From the NCBI RefSeq assembly GCF_030068615.1, contig NZ_JASJOC010000015.1:1-64000 (forward strand): a stretch of 64,000 bases of DNA, read 5' to 3'. The number at the start of each line of letters is the position of its first letter. Within the stretch, counting starts at the first letter, position 1. The position numbers were made by a program, and so were the translations under genes. The notes below the pieces were generated by a model. The model worked only from the letters and a program-made list of their open reading frames with translations. It was not told the DNA's origin and made no database searches. Positions 3,307 to 14,323 of the stretch are shown in pieces. The DNA comes from Halostagnicola sp. A-GB9-2 (GTDB taxonomy: Archaea > Halobacteriota > Halobacteria > Halobacteriales > Natrialbaceae).

Positions 3307-4228
3307 ACACACCGCGGGCCGGAGTCAGCCCACCTCGAGGGTCTCTGCCGTTCTCGAGCGCGTGCGGCGGTTCGGTCGCTCTCGGGTCGGAACGGCGATG
3401 CGGATGAACGGACAGATTCGCCTCGGCGGCGGGATCGTCTGTCTGCTCGGACTCGTCGCGGTCGTCGGACCGTTTCTCACGCCGTACGATCCGGCGGCCC
3501 AGGCGCTTGAAACTCGCCTCCAGGGGCCGTCGCTCGCACATCCGCTCGGAACCGACTCGCTCGGGCGTGACGTTGCGACGCGGCTGGTCCACGGCGCGCG
3601 GATTTCGCTCGCGCTCGCCGTCGCAGCCACGGCCGTACGGGTCGTCCTCGGTACGACTATCGGACTGCTCGCGGCCGTCAGCGGCGGGCTGGTCGACACC
3701 GCGTTGATGCGACTCGCGGACATTCAGCTCGCGTTCCCGGGACTCGTTCTGGCGCTGGTGATCGCCGGGGCGCTCGGACCCAGCATCCAAAACGTTGTCA
3801 TCGCCCTCTCGGTAGTCGGATGGGCGACGTACGCGCGGATCGTTCGCGCCAATGCACTCGCCGTCAAGGAGCGGCCGTTTGTGCAATCGGCTCGCCTCTA
3901 TGGCACGCCGAAACGGCGGATCGTCAGGCGGCACCTGCTCCCGAACGTCGTCAACCCGGTGGTCGTCCTCGCGACGCTCAACCTCGGGACGGTCGTGCTC
4001 GCGGCCGCCGGCCTCTCGTTTCTCGGCCTCGGCGCACAACCGCCGACGGCGGAGTGGGGGACGATGATCGCCGGCGGCCGGGACTACCTACGAGCCGCGC
4101 CGTGGCTGATCACGGCACCCGGCGTCGCGATCGCGTTCACCGTCATCGGGTTCAACCTCCTCGGCGACGGTCTACGGGATGCACTGGACACTGACCACAT
4201 TGACGACGGCAAACGGAGGCGAACCTGA
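3299..4228 (+). CDS. dppC: Peptide ABC transporter permease (DppC family)
   Basis: Second membrane subunit, 309 aa. The N-terminus carries the short OppC-type cytoplasmic extension and a first membrane helix (GGGIVCLLGLVAVVGPFLTP), then the family motif HPLGTDSLGRDVATRLVHGARISL near residues 80-104 (quoted in part), a multi-spanning permease domain and the EAA-type loop near YGTPKRRIVRRHLLPN. It starts inside the 3' end of the first permease (8-nt overlap) and is followed after one base by the ATPase start, so the three genes form one transcription unit. Confidence 0.92.
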   Translation: MSEHTAGRSQPTSRVSAVLERVRRFGRSRVGTAMRMNGQIRLGGGIVCLLGLVAVVGPFLTPYDPAAQALETRLQGPSLAHPLGTDSLGRDVATRLVHGARISLALAVAATAVRVVLGTTIGLLAAVSGGLVDTALMRLADIQLAFPGLVLALVIAGALGPSIQNVVIALSVVGWATYARIVRANALAVKERPFVQSARLYGTPKRRIVRRHLLPNVVNPVVVLATLNLGTVVLAAAGLSFLGLGAQPPTAEWGTMIAGGRDYLRAAPWLITAPGVAIAFTVIGFNLLGDGLRDALDTDHIDDGKRRRT

Positions 4229-4229
4229 G

Positions 4230-6587
4230 ATGACCGGAACGCTCTCGGTGGAGGACCTGCACGTCAGGTTCCGAACCGAATCCGGGCAGGTTCACGCGGT
4301 CAACGGCGTGAGCTTCGAGGTATCTCAGGGCGAGATCGTCGGCCTCGTCGGCGAGAGCGGCTGCGGCAAATCGGTCACCGCGCGCTCGCTCGTCCGCCTC
4401 GAGGATCCCGGAGAGATCGTCGACGGGCGCGTGCGCTTCGACGGACGCGAACTCACGACCGCCGATGAGCGGACGTTGCGAGGGCTTCGAAGCACCGAGC
4501 TGGCGATGGTCCCGCAGGATCCGTCGACGGCGCTCAATCCGGCCTACACCGTCGGCGAACAGATCGCCGAGGCGCTTCGAGTTCACCGGAGTCCAGATGA
4601 CCAGCCGTTTTTCTCGGAGCTCGCCATTGGTGTCAGCTCGCGGCTTCGCTCTCGAGCGCTCCAGTCGCGAGTTCTCGAGTTGCTGGAGACGGTTGATATT
4701 CCCCGTCCCGAGGACCGGATCGACGACTACCCCCACCAGTTCAGCGGCGGCATGCGCCAGCGTGTCTTGCTCGCGATCGCCCTTGCCCGCGATCCGTCGG
4801 TGCTGATCGCCGACGAGCCGACGACGGGATTAGATACGACGACGCAAGCGGCGATTTTGGACCGACTGGCCGACCTCAACGACTCTCGAGACATGGGAAT
4901 GTTGCTGATCAGCCACGACTTCGGCGTCGTCTCGGAACTGTGTGATCGGGTCGTCGTCATGTACAACGGGACGGTCGTCGAGCGTGGGCCGGTCGAAGCG
5001 GTCCGTTCGAATCCGACCCACCCCTACACGAAGGCGCTACTGGGTTGTCTGCCACACCGATCCGAACCGCAATCGCGACTGCCGACGGTCGGGGGGTCAC
5101 CGCCGGATGGATCCGCGTCACCGGACGGCTGTGCCTTCGTCGACCGGTGTCCGTTCGCGACGGAAGATTGCCGCGGGGCCGCTCCGCCGGTCGTTCACGT
5201 CGCGGACAACCACGACGTCCGGTGTGGCGTTTCCCAAGCGCGCGAGGCGACCCTCGAGTCGACGCTTGCGGCCGACGACGACGGTTCGTTGGACAACCCA
5301 GCACCGGCGGGAGATCCGGATGCGAGACAACCGACTCCGGCGACCGTCGTGGACGGCGGGGCCGTCCGAACTGACGAGACGGGCGGCGAACGGACGGGTG
5401 ATCGAACGGCGGAACCGACGATCGCGAGCGATCCAGCGGCTACCGCCGAAAAACCGTCGGCAACCGCCGGCGACGACGCGACGGCCGCGCCCACCTCCGA
5501 CTCCGGCGACACGTCGCCGGTCGTCGAACTCGAGAACGTCCACAAATCCTTCCGAGAATCCGACGCGCTCCTCGATCGAGTGCTTCCGTTCGGGGACGAC
5601 GAGACGGTCGACGCCGTCAGGGGCGTCTCGCTCGAACTCCGCGCGGGGGAGACCCTCGGGCTCGTCGGCGAGAGCGGCTGCGGAAAGTCGACGCTGGCGA
5701 AGCTGGTGACCGGCCTCGAGGCGCCGACGGGCGGGAGCGTTCACATTCGCGGTGAGGCCGTCGACGGGGTCGACCGACGGACGAACGAGCAACTCGCAGA
5801 GATCGGTGCCGTCTTCCAGAACCCCGGAGCCAGTCTCAACCCGAAGCGGACGGTCGGCGAATCGATCGCCGAGCCATTATTCGAAGCCGGCTGGGACAAA
5901 CAGCGACGAATCGATCGGATCGAAACGGTGCTCTCGCTCGTCGATCTCCCGCTCGAGTGCGCCGATCGGTACCCGCGACGGCTTTCCGGCGGTCAGCAAC
6001 AGCGAGTGGCGATCGCTCGCGCGCTCGCGCTCGAGCCGGCGGTGCTCGTCCTGGACGAGCCGACGGCCGCCCTCGACGTCTCGACCCAGGCGACGGTCCT
6101 CAATCTCCTCGCCGACCTCCAGGACGAACTCGGGCTCGCGTACCTGTTCATCTCTCACGACCTCGACGTCGTGCGCAACGCCGCTGATCGAGTCGCCGCG
6201 ATGTATCTGGGTCGGCTCGTGGAGGTCGGACCGACCGGGCGAACGCTCTCCAAACCGACACATCCCTACACACAGGCGCTTCTGGACTCGATCCCCGGCG
6301 ATCGATTCGGCGAGGGGTCGTCCGATCTCCGACTCACGGGCGAGCCGCCGAGTCCGACCGACCCGCCCGATGGCTGTGCGTTCCACCCTCGCTGTCCCGC
6401 CGCCACGCCGGAGTGTTCGCGGATCGACCCCGACCTCGAGTCCGTCTCAGAAGGACAGTCGCGGTGTCTGTACGCACCCGATTGGCGGGACGGTGCGGGC
6501 GAGACCGATCAGCATCGAGTGACGGACGAACGGCGAGCGACGGGCGAACAGCAGTCGATGCCGCGATCGAGCGGCGACCAGCGCTGA
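4230..6587 (+). CDS. dppDF: Fused double ATPase of peptide ABC transporter (DppD-DppF)
   Basis: 785-aa protein holding both nucleotide-binding subunits that most bacteria encode separately. Domain 1 has Walker A GESGCGKS at 41-48, signature FSGGMRQRV and Walker B LIADEPTTGLD; domain 2 has Walker A at 480-487, LSGGQQQRVAIARAL and LVLDEPTAALD. Each ends with the OppD/F C-terminal region with its cysteine cluster (CAFVDRCPFATEDC and CAFHPRCPAATPEC), which in the family can hold an iron-sulfur cluster. A low-complexity Ala/Asp/Thr linker of roughly 90 residues joins the halves. I chose ATG 4230 because GGAGG at 4215-4219 precedes it and domain 1 starts right after. Confidence 0.93.
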   Translation: MTGTLSVEDLHVRFRTESGQVHAVNGVSFEVSQGEIVGLVGESGCGKSVTARSLVRLEDPGEIVDGRVRFDGRELTTADERTLRGLRSTELAMVPQDPSTALNPAYTVGEQIAEALRVHRSPDDQPFFSELAIGVSSRLRSRALQSRVLELLETVDIPRPEDRIDDYPHQFSGGMRQRVLLAIALARDPSVLIADEPTTGLDTTTQAAILDRLADLNDSRDMGMLLISHDFGVVSELCDRVVVMYNGTVVERGPVEAVRSNPTHPYTKALLGCLPHRSEPQSRLPTVGGSPPDGSASPDGCAFVDRCPFATEDCRGAAPPVVHVADNHDVRCGVSQAREATLESTLAADDDGSLDNPAPAGDPDARQPTPATVVDGGAVRTDETGGERTGDRTAEPTIASDPAATAEKPSATAGDDATAAPTSDSGDTSPVVELENVHKSFRESDALLDRVLPFGDDETVDAVRGVSLELRAGETLGLVGESGCGKSTLAKLVTGLEAPTGGSVHIRGEAVDGVDRRTNEQLAEIGAVFQNPGASLNPKRTVGESIAEPLFEAGWDKQRRIDRIETVLSLVDLPLECADRYPRRLSGGQQQRVAIARALALEPAVLVLDEPTAALDVSTQATVLNLLADLQDELGLAYLFISHDLDVVRNAADRVAAMYLGRLVEVGPTGRTLSKPTHPYTQALLDSIPGDRFGEGSSDLRLTGEPPSPTDPPDGCAFHPRCPAATPECSRIDPDLESVSEGQSRCLYAPDWRDGAGETDQHRVTDERRATGEQQSMPRSSGDQR

Positions 6588-11029: not shown

Positions 11030-12106
11030 CTAATCGTCCGCAGGCGCAGGCGTCTCGCGTTCAATGTCGATTTCGCCGGCATCGAGCTGTGCTTCGACGT
11101 TGCGAGCGGCCTCGACCATGTTCGCCATCTTGCCGTAGGCGACCTCGCGCGGAAGGAGCTTCACGCCGCAGTCCGGCGAGACGACGAGCTGTTCGGGCGG
11201 CACGATCTCGAGCCCTTTCTTTATGTTCTCCTCGATCTGCTCGACCGACTCGACTTCCGCAACGTGAACGTCGGTCACGCCGAGTGCGAGATCCGCGGTG
11301 AACTCGGGGTCCTTGAAGACATCGAGCTGGTCGTAGTCGCCGTTGGCGAGTTCGAGGTCGAACTCGTCGACGGGGAACTCGAGGATCTCGGGGTAGATCC
11401 GGGAGTAGTCGCCGTAACAGACGTGGAGGCCGATGCGAACTTCCTCGGGAATGTCGGCGACGATGTGTTCGAGCGCTTCGCCGACGATAGCGTGGTCGTC
11501 AGGCGTCGTCGCGAGCGCGGGCTCGTCGATCTGGATGTAGCGAGCGCCGGCGTCGACGAGCTTTTCGATCTCCTCGTTAACGAGGTCGGCAAGCTCGAGC
11601 GTGAGGTCGTCGTCGTCGTCGTAGGCCTCGTTGAACGACCAGTTCGCAAGGGTGTAGGGTCCCGTGATGGGGACCTTGACGGGGCGGTCGCTGGCCTCGG
11701 CGGTGAACTCGTACTCGTCAACGAGCCAGGTTTCGTCGTACTTGACCTCGCTGACGACGCTCGGCTTATCGAAGTAGTTGTGTCCCCAGACCTTGACCGG
11801 ACCGTTGAACTCGTAGCCCTCGATACGGTGGGCGAAGAACTCGACCATCTCGTTTCGGCGCATCTCGCCGTCGACGACGACGTCGAGTCCCGCTCGCTCG
11901 TGTTCGTTGGTGATGAGGCGGGCGGCGTCGTCTTTGGCTTCCTGATAGTCGCCCTCGTCGAATCCGTGGTCCGGGTCCTGATAGAGCTCTTTTGCGCGGT
12001 TGAGCCACTTCGGTTTGGCGTAGCTGCCGACGACCGTCGACAGCAGGAAGTGGTCGTTTTCGTGATCGTCCGGTCGGAACTGGTCTTTGTTCTCGTTCGT
12101 GCTCAT
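11030..12106 (-). CDS. metE: Core methionine synthase (MetE C-terminal type)
   Basis: 358-aa cobalamin-independent-type methionine synthase without the N-terminal half of bacterial MetE. It transfers a methyl group to homocysteine. The zinc site that activates homocysteine is complete: H228-V-C230, an acidic residue near 252 in LELANGD, and C313 in SPDCGVK, with the spacing of MetE (about 83 residues between the cysteines). Archaeal core enzymes studied elsewhere do not use polyglutamyl methyltetrahydrofolate, and the methyl donor here is unknown. It overlaps the upstream paralogue by 4 nt (ATGA), so both proteins are made together. Confidence 0.9.
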   Translation of the reverse strand: MSTNENKDQFRPDDHENDHFLLSTVVGSYAKPKWLNRAKELYQDPDHGFDEGDYQEAKDDAARLITNEHERAGLDVVVDGEMRRNEMVEFFAHRIEGYEFNGPVKVWGHNYFDKPSVVSEVKYDETWLVDEYEFTAEASDRPVKVPITGPYTLANWSFNEAYDDDDDLTLELADLVNEEIEKLVDAGARYIQIDEPALATTPDDHAIVGEALEHIVADIPEEVRIGLHVCYGDYSRIYPEILEFPVDEFDLELANGDYDQLDVFKDPEFTADLALGVTDVHVAEVESVEQIEENIKKGLEIVPPEQLVVSPDCGVKLLPREVAYGKMANMVEAARNVEAQLDAGEIDIERETPAPADD

Positions 12107-13107
12107 GCGGCTTTCACCTCGGCGAGATCCGCGGCTTCGGCAAGGATCTCGAGTTTCGCTTCGTGTTTGTTATACGGCAGGTGGAACGTTCCCGTGTTCG
12201 TGGTCAGGTAGACGGTCTCGAAGTCGGTGACGGGAATCTGGTCGAACACCCAGTCGGTTCGATCTCGAACCGCTTCCGGATCCTCGACAAGCGTGTTCTG
12301 GCCGTCGACGAGTCCGAGCGAGATCTCGTTCGTCGCGCCGTACTCCTGAATGTTGTAGAGGTTGTCCTCCTGTTCGGAGACGAAGTCGAAGCCGACCGCG
12401 TCGATGTCGGCATCGAGCAGGTGCGCGTAGGTCTTCTCCTCGAGTGCGCCCCAGTAGGGGTGGGCGACGACGTCGGCGTCGGTCGCGGCGGCGACCGTGT
12501 CGATGGCCTCGCTGGCGCGTTCGTCGAGTCCGTCTTCGGGTGCATCTTCGACGAGCGACGGCTCGAGCAGGTACAGCGTCTCGACCTCCGGGAATGCCTC
12601 GACCTCGCCCGCGAGGAAGTCAGCAACCGCGGCAAGAAAGTCGGCTTCGTCGTCGTAGTGTTCGTCGGTCGCGAGCTCGGCCAGTGAGTACGGACCGGGG
12701 AGAACCGCCTGTAGATCCGCATCCGGCGCGAGTTCACTGGTCGCCTCGAGCTCGGACGCAATGTCGCCGGAGAAATCGAGCTCGCCGGAGACGACGGGCT
12801 CTCGGTAGAAGTTGTTGTTGTCGTAGTATCGAACGATGCCCCGCGTTTCGACGGCATCGTGGACGGCAAGGGGATGGGCGAGCATATCGTCCCAGCGCAG
12901 TTGCCCTTCAACGATGCGGTCGAGCCCGGCATCCTGTTGGGCGTCGACTACTTCTTCTCGAGCGCTTTCGTAAACCGAGGTAATCTCCTCGCTTTCGTCA
13001 CCGCCGATGAGGTCGTGCTTCTGGTGTCCCTTCAGATCCGAAAGGTCGTCTTTCGCCCAATCGGGGAGCGCAAAGAGCCCCGCCGTGGTCGAAACGTATT
13101 CGGTCAT
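12103..13107 (-). CDS. Cysteine-free MetE paralogue, partner of the core methionine synthase
   Basis: 334-aa TIM-barrel protein of the MetE/UROD superfamily, usually annotated as a methyltetrahydropteroyltriglutamate-homocysteine methyltransferase. Unlike its neighbour it contains no cysteine at all: the zinc motif HxC is replaced by H216-P-Y218 and the second cysteine is gone, so it cannot bind zinc and homocysteine in the known manner. Barrel features remain, for example LPGPYSLAEL near 136 and IVEGQLRWDDML near 65. Being first in a coupled two-gene operon, it may bind the methyl donor or act as a structural partner. That role is inference. Confidence 0.82.
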   Translation of the reverse strand: MTEYVSTTAGLFALPDWAKDDLSDLKGHQKHDLIGGDESEEITSVYESAREEVVDAQQDAGLDRIVEGQLRWDDMLAHPLAVHDAVETRGIVRYYDNNNFYREPVVSGELDFSGDIASELEATSELAPDADLQAVLPGPYSLAELATDEHYDDEADFLAAVADFLAGEVEAFPEVETLYLLEPSLVEDAPEDGLDERASEAIDTVAAATDADVVAHPYWGALEEKTYAHLLDADIDAVGFDFVSEQEDNLYNIQEYGATNEISLGLVDGQNTLVEDPEAVRDRTDWVFDQIPVTDFETVYLTTNTGTFHLPYNKHEAKLEILAEAADLAEVKAA

Positions 13108-13145: not shown

Positions 13146-13267
13146 TCCATCCACGTTAATACACCACAGTAATTATGCGGCGGAAGCCGTCCGAAGCTCG
13201 ACGCCGTCGGGACAGACGGAAATCGGTGACGAAGGACCTAAGAGGTGAACGCAGACAATGTGAGTTA

Positions 13268-14323
13268 ATGGAGACGACCCACCGGTTGTTCGTCGGCGAC
13301 TCGCGGGACCTGACCGCCGTCGCTGACGATTCCGTCGAACTCGTCGTCACGTCTCCGCCGTATCCGATGATCGAGATGTGGGACGATCTCTTTACCGACC
13401 TTGATCCGGACGTCTCGAGCGCGCTGGATGCGGGTGACGGACAGGCGGCGTTCGATGCGATGCACGCCCAACTCGATCGCGTCTGGGACGAACTCGAGCG
13501 GGTGCTCGTCGACGGCGGAATCGCCTGTATCAACGTTGGCGATGCGACCCGCTCGCTCGAGGACAGCTTTCGCGTCTATCCGAATCACGCGCGAGTGACG
13601 GAGGCGTTCGAAGAGCGAGGGTTCGACCCGCTCCCCGACGTGCTCTGGCGGAAGCCGGCTAACAGCGCCGCGAAGTTCATGGGAAGCGGCATGATCCCGC
13701 CGAATGCGTACGTCACGCTCGAACACGAGTACGTCCTGATCTTTCGCAACGGCGGCGACCGTCGGTCGTTCGAACCCGGCGCGGATCGGCGGTACGAAGC
13801 GGCCTACTTCTGGGAGGAACGCAACCGCTGGTTCACCGACGTTTGGACGGAAGTCCGGGGCGAGTTACAGGACCTCGAGAACGTGCCCGAGGACGTTCGG
13901 GAACGTTCCGGCGCGTATCCGCTCGAGATACCGTATCGCCTAATATCGATGTATTCGACGTACGGCGACACCGTTCTCGATCCGTTCTGGGGGACCGGAA
14001 CGACCTCCCTGGCCGCGATCTGTGCCGGCCGTAACTCCGTCGGCTACGAACTCGAGGACGGCTTCCTCGACGTCTTCGACGAACGGGTCGCCGAAATCGG
14101 ATCCCTCTCGAGGGATATCGGTCGAACGCGCCTCGAACGACACCGCGAGTTCGTCGAGCAACGCCGACGAGACGGGGATGACCTTTCCTACGAAGCCGCC
14201 AACTACGACGTCCCCGTCATGACGAAGATGGAATCCGAGATTCTGTTCAGAGAGGCCGAGGAGGTACGAGAAACCGACGCGGGGTATCGCGTCGAACACG
14301 TTCCGCTCGAAGAATCCAAGTAA
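13268..14323 (+). CDS. Orphan TSPPY-type DNA methyltransferase (N4-cytosine, probably CTAG)
   Basis: 351-aa S-adenosylmethionine-dependent DNA methyltransferase of the beta class. The catalytic motif TSPPYP is at 28-33 and the cofactor motif DPFWGTGTT at 238-246, an order (catalytic first, cofactor second) typical of N4-cytosine and some N6-adenine enzymes. No restriction endonuclease lies beside it, so it is an orphan. Haloarchaea carry a conserved orphan enzyme of this type that methylates CTAG, and I infer this is its orthologue. I chose ATG 13268 because the motifs begin just after; an upstream start at 13175 adds a random Arg-rich stretch. Confidence 0.82.
   Translation: METTHRLFVGDSRDLTAVADDSVELVVTSPPYPMIEMWDDLFTDLDPDVSSALDAGDGQAAFDAMHAQLDRVWDELERVLVDGGIACINVGDATRSLEDSFRVYPNHARVTEAFEERGFDPLPDVLWRKPANSAAKFMGSGMIPPNAYVTLEHEYVLIFRNGGDRRSFEPGADRRYEAAYFWEERNRWFTDVWTEVRGELQDLENVPEDVRERSGAYPLEIPYRLISMYSTYGDTVLDPFWGTGTTSLAAICAGRNSVGYELEDGFLDVFDERVAEIGSLSRDIGRTRLERHREFVEQRRRDGDDLSYEAANYDVPVMTKMESEILFREAEEVRETDAGYRVEHVPLEESK

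Follow-up and report, generated by a model that had tools for sequence, protein, structure and literature searches.

A split MetE pair with a zinc-less N subunit in Halostagnicola sp. A-GB9-2, and a variant catalytic chain in RACo-carrying haloarchaea

The window, as we call the whole 64,000-nucleotide stretch of Halostagnicola sp. A-GB9-2 DNA that was analysed, lies on a haloarchaeal contig (G000, 4.68 Mb). Two adjacent genes on its minus strand encode proteins of the MetE family, which we assign to the two subunits of split MetE:

12103..13107, minus strand: N subunit of split MetE (MetE N-terminal barrel, zinc-less), 334 aa, ATG start, no cysteine
11030..12106, minus strand: C subunit of split MetE (catalytic, zinc/homocysteine barrel), 358 aa
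12103..12106, minus strand: ATGA stop/start overlap of the N and C genes, read from the sequence

Absence of cysteine is the rule among haloarchaeal N subunits (67/84), and the C subunit has exactly two cysteines, C230 and C313. ATGA or GTGA overlaps were found in 76 of 84 haloarchaeal N-C pairs and in 18 of 27 other pairs; the overlap in the window suggests that translation of the two genes is coupled. Both chains carry the database names 'methionine synthase' or '5-methyltetrahydropteroyltriglutamate--homocysteine methyltransferase'. A gene for a DNA N4/N6 methylase (PF01555; window 13265-14323, plus strand) is oriented divergently from the pair, at a distance of about 160 bases. A sigma-70 promoter scan was uninformative, the host being an archaeon, and a plasmid search returned three haloarchaeal plasmids and no more.

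The name 'split MetE' was given to N- and C-terminal domains of MetE encoded by adjacent genes (Price, Deutschbauer and Arkin, 2021; PMC7857596). The arrangement was reported in 107 genomes, of which 73 were Halobacteria without other methionine synthase, and the catalytic subunits of Haloferax and Natronomonas were named explicitly. In that study, a catalytic component had to be no longer than 400 aa and to reach 200 bits or more against P. furiosus PF1269 in phmmer, and its folate-side counterpart, likewise no longer than 400 aa, had to score higher on Meth_synt_1 (PF08267) than on Meth_synt_2; as proxies for the phmmer score, the 358-aa C chain of the window has 191 bits for PF01717 and 540 bits for NCBIfam PRK04326.1 (methionine synthase; cut-off 406). 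The 334-aa N chain, also below 400 aa, scores 57.1 bits on PF08267 (cut-off 27) and 54.9 bits on PF01717; it barely favours Meth_synt_1 over Meth_synt_2, which matches the published remark that this component is hard to identify (PMC7857596). Because 57 and 55 bits are not decisive, naming the upstream chain from Pfam alone was dropped, and the tree and the residues were used instead. AlphaFold2 models were built from alignments of 40 relatives for the N chain (mean pLDDT 92.4) and 36 relatives for the C chain (mean pLDDT 90.1). The first structural match of the C-chain model is the one-chain MetE of Thermotoga maritima (PDB 1xpg; TM 0.85). The same structure is the best full-length MetE for the N-chain model (TM 0.84) and its third match overall; a one-barrel methionine synthase from Shewanella is among those ranking above it.

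We then compared the zinc and homocysteine sites across 115 N subunits and 109 C subunits. The corresponding positions in the window are as follows:

11417..11425, minus strand: C subunit H228-V-C230, zinc ligands (His and Cys in 109/109 C subunits)
11351..11353, minus strand: C subunit E252, fourth zinc ligand (Glu in 109/109)
11168..11170, minus strand: C subunit C313, zinc ligand (Cys in 108/109, one gap)
12454..12462, minus strand: N subunit H216-P217-Y218, dead zinc site with Tyr for the zinc Cys, aligned with H228-V-C230

The C barrel of the window thus has the whole MetE zinc set of His, Cys, Glu and Cys, together with the homocysteine-binding Glu484 (T. maritima numbering), kept as E81; across the C subunits compared, the zinc set and Glu484 are likewise retained. 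In the N subunits, the zinc Glu is replaced by Asp (115/115) and Glu484 by Gln (113/115), and the position of the zinc ligand Cys620 is always aromatic (102 Tyr, 11 Phe, and 2 Trp among 115). The preceding His is variable; among the 84 haloarchaeal N subunits, the motif reads HTY in 29, QPY in 26, and HPY in 11. The residues listed in the preliminary description of this DNA (no cysteine and HPY upstream; H228, C230, and C313 downstream) and the ATGA overlap are all present as described. The N barrel of MetE is a duplicate of the zinc barrel that lost zinc through a Cys-to-Tyr change, which is Tyr232 in T. maritima MetE (Pejchal and Ludwig; PMC539065), and the same loss explains HPY in the N chain of the window. 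Two other accounts were discarded. Chance zinc loss or sequencing error was ruled out by the aromatic residue kept in 115 N subunits, and a pseudogene by the presence of the N subunit in nearly all genomes of the order, with relatives that are 70-80% identical.

Of 117 genomes of the order, 113 gave a match to the N subunit (in a few, such as G012, G015, and G030, the matched protein is the catalytic barrel itself), and 114 have a catalytic-type chain. The expectation that the two clades always co-occur holds nearly everywhere. Diverged N-subunit-like proteins stand alone at L165 (about 4037-5182; G064:C3) and L193 (about 3952-4869; G455:C1), and no catalytic MetE chain was detected in G064 (99% complete). 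The pair also occurs in Archaeoglobales, Bathyarchaeota, Methanonatronarchaeia, a nanoarchaeon, Chloroflexi, TA06, and Tectomicrobia; bacterial examples are L087, L089, L091, L095, L100, and L101 (Chloroflexi/Dehalococcoidia), L086, and L102. Across archaea and bacteria, the N gene is followed by the C gene on the same strand at 111 of 112 informative loci (115 loci less three with too little flank, fused MetE uncounted), the sole exception being a Zixibacteria locus.

In the tree, one branch (100/98) separates the N from the C barrels, the same lineages group on each side of it, and E. coli MetE and a haloarchaeal fused MetE each place one half per side. This topology bears on the idea that the zinc-less chain is an independent haloarchaeal duplicate of the catalytic gene with a new function, e.g., as a regulatory or stabilising subunit. 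Such an origin would agree with the single fold family of the two chains and with the almost equal scores of the N chain on PF08267 and PF01717. However, the branch parts N from C across archaea, bacteria, and the halves of E. coli MetE, the signature changes of the N subunit are those of MetE N barrels, and a single clade of haloarchaeal N and C chains, i.e., independent duplication within the haloarchaea, was rejected (p-AU 1.3e-5). We regard a haloarchaeal duplicate as extremely improbable and read the upstream chain as the N barrel of MetE. For fused MetE, the catalytic half falls inside the split C clade, and placing it outside gave a p-AU of 0.02 (two fused sequences); this position fits fusion of an older pair, not breakage of MetE, hinting that fused MetE may have arisen by joining of the split pair. 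The split genes occur in archaea and in several bacterial phyla, ordered as in the fused protein, which makes a testable point on MetE evolution. One haloarchaeon has both a fused full-length MetE (768 aa open frame) and a split pair (L041; G060:C3).

Compared with the archaeal split MetE of P. furiosus (PF1268/PF1269) and Pyrolobus fumarii, which also consists of two chains of at most 400 aa with Meth_synt_1 and Meth_synt_2 domains encoded by adjacent genes, nothing essential differs in the window. Compared with one-chain MetE (E. coli b3829; T. maritima TM1286), the two barrels, their order, and the zinc site are the same, and the Cys-to-Tyr loss in the N barrel and Trp539 are common to both; the window differs in having two chains, a shorter N barrel, and a C chain that lacks the six-residue Glu583 loop. 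The core methionine synthases (MesA to MesD) have a homologous catalytic barrel with His, Cys, Glu, and Cys, but those compared lack an N partner, the pterin hairpin, and Trp539, whereas the C chain of the window has all three. In its published sense, 'core MetE', the label first given to the downstream chain, does not suit a protein that has a partner gene and still carries the long pterin hairpin and stacking Trp.

The residues of the pterin site that could be placed in the window are as follows:

11639..11641, minus strand: C subunit W156, corresponding to Trp539 of T. maritima MetE, which stacks on the pterin (Trp in 108/109 split C subunits)
12829..12831, minus strand: N subunit R93, corresponding to Lys104 of T. 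maritima MetE, which contacts the pterin (Arg in 115/115 N subunits)

The equivalent of Trp539 is missing in all 9 core or variant sequences compared. N and C subunits alike have a long beta2 hairpin, whereas the methanogen-type core enzymes compared have neither the hairpin nor the Trp. Because the C chain keeps this hairpin and Trp, which corrinoid-type core enzymes lack, the donor of the window pair is most likely a methyl pterin (methyl-H4folate). Of the folate contacts in T. maritima MetE (Arg15, Lys18, Lys104, Arg493, Arg496, Trp539, and Glu583), others have changed: the loop with the pterin-binding Glu583 is missing from every split C subunit compared, haloarchaea have Asn in place of Arg493, and Arg15 has no clear equivalent, so the pterin must be held partly differently. 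With Glu583 missing from the C chain, a methyl-pterin donor is what we infer; we found no direct biochemistry on any split MetE in the literature. The same donor, methyl-H4folate or another methyl pterin, was predicted for split MetE previously (PMC7857596). The Halostagnicola genome encodes a homologue of Mer, the F420-dependent reductase (303 bits, below the cut-off of 348.7), and gives two weak MTHFR matches; in H. volcanii, used as a control, no MTHFR match was found. Haloarchaeal Mer is assumed to act on tetrahydrofolate (Pfeiffer and Dyall-Smith; PMC8305020). The donor could accordingly be methyl-H4folate, and neither the Mer homologue nor the MTHFR matches prove methyl-H4folate synthesis.

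As to the part played by the N chain, to single out the zinc-less chain as the one that binds the methyl donor overstates the case. The folate of T. maritima MetE sits between the barrels, with most of its contacts coming from the zinc barrel, and the authors advised against naming the N barrel a folate-binding domain (PMC539065). This distribution of contacts would also suit an N chain that merely shapes or stabilises the catalytic barrel and does not touch the methyl donor. Against such a passive role, the hairpin motif VRYYDNN and the basic equivalents of Lys18 (K/R) and Lys104 are kept in all 115 N subunits, and we consider it unlikely. We favour an N chain that contributes to a shared pterin site, for which a mechanism can be proposed from papers on one-chain MetE, with complex formation taken from the Pyrococcus homologues, of which PF1268/PF1269 of P. 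furiosus was reported as a complex (cited in PMC7857596). The downstream chain would bind zinc via H228, C230, E252, and C313 and activate homocysteine as the thiolate. The upstream chain, a MetE N-terminal barrel whose zinc and homocysteine sites were presumably disabled long ago, would dock face to face on the catalytic barrel and complete the pterin cleft; such a complex is predicted for Halostagnicola as well. A methylated pterin, most likely 5-methyl-tetrahydrofolate in haloarchaea, would be held by the hairpins of both chains and W156, and its methyl group would pass directly to homocysteine, without B12.

The identity of the pair follows from domains, fold, adjacency, residue loss and retention, and phylogeny. 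Taken together, we consider it very likely that the window encodes a split MetE of a zinc-less N subunit and a catalytic C subunit that most likely uses a methyl pterin, without B12. The preliminary description is thus partly supported: its core proposal, a methionine synthase of two chains of which one has no zinc, agrees with the family matches, the tree, the adjacency of the genes, and the residue patterns, and is already in print (PMC7857596). The arrangement is published for most salt-loving archaea, and the zinc-less half corresponds to the half of MetE already known to be non-catalytic. For the pair itself, the main gain is in annotation, in that the zinc-less chain should carry the label N subunit of split MetE.

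The newer part of this work is a by-product that we think worth following, a variant catalytic chain designated C*. C* is the sole catalytic-type chain in 4 of the 117 genomes of the order (G012, G015, G030, and G039), which have no N or ordinary C subunit. It has diverged (43-47% identical): the hairpin is gone, Trp539 is replaced by Phe, and Gly stands in place of the Asp/Glu in the DMV motif, but the zinc ligands are retained. RACo (PF14574), which reductively activates corrinoid proteins, was found in exactly these four of the 117 genomes and, in a wider set, in 7 of 392 haloarchaeal genomes. A C* profile matches the same 7 of 392 at 494-656 bits, the next match being at 430. The C* genes lie at the following loci:

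L163:3502-4539, L162:3761-4798, L164:3337-4422, L161:3622-4674, L189:7330-8388, L192:5396-6481, and L182

In five of the seven genomes, neither an N subunit nor an ordinary C subunit was detected, and G248 and G455 have an ordinary N-C pair besides C*. The seven are not independent, as C* may have spread together with RACo, and three are 72-78% complete; the two complete genomes that lack the ordinary pair, G012 and G039, yielded no MetE-family protein other than C*. C* forms a single clade, whose sister is the split C clade of haloarchaea (100/100). Its gene adjoins genes for an MttB-type methyltransferase, RACo, and DUF1638 in G015, and for RACo and DUF1638 in G030; in G012 and G248, the neighbourhood of RACo or C* includes B12-binding proteins, MtrH, an MTHFR-like gene, or MttB. 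RamA and DUF1638 are predicted to recharge cobalamin in a marine bacterial system for methionine and glycine betaine (PMC12478193). From sequence and gene neighbourhood, C* is probably a B12/corrinoid-fed methionine synthase, derived in a few haloarchaea from the C chain of split MetE. If this is true, C* would add a fifth family, a haloarchaeal one, to the folate-independent synthases and would serve as a natural control for the role of the zinc-less twin; the variant, found in haloarchaea with RACo, would also reveal which residues and which subunit accompany a pterin donor.

The coincidence of RACo with a chain that has no paired N subunit, hairpin, or Trp is a natural contrast that supports the pterin reading of the split pair. 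A corrinoid protein had been among the donors first considered, and the zinc-less chain might be a docking platform for a methylated corrinoid protein, making the pair a corrinoid-dependent two-chain core synthase. Core MetE enzymes do accept methylcobalamin in vitro (PMC7005905, PMC7857596), and the loss of the Glu583 folate contact would be in keeping with such a donor. However, the C chain retains the pterin hairpin and the Trp absent from core enzymes, and RACo was not found in the Halostagnicola genome and is confined, among the 392 haloarchaea, to the seven with the variant chain that has no pterin site. A corrinoid donor for the window pair is thus very unlikely.

Two further MetE-family proteins are encoded in the Halostagnicola genome. 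The first is a second catalytic-type chain (71% identical; L160:8072-9139; G000:C1, about 300071-301138, plus strand), which keeps the zinc ligands and Trp539, and groups with a Haloarcula C subunit (100/98). It has no twin beside it, so a C chain can exist alone, a point that counts against our preferred explanation; its gene is flanked by a probable mevalonate-pathway gene and a probable endonuclease III gene. The second is a distant protein of 404 aa (L003:1408-2622; G000:C11; PF01717, 62 bits), whose gene adjoins a probable lactate/malate dehydrogenase-type gene.
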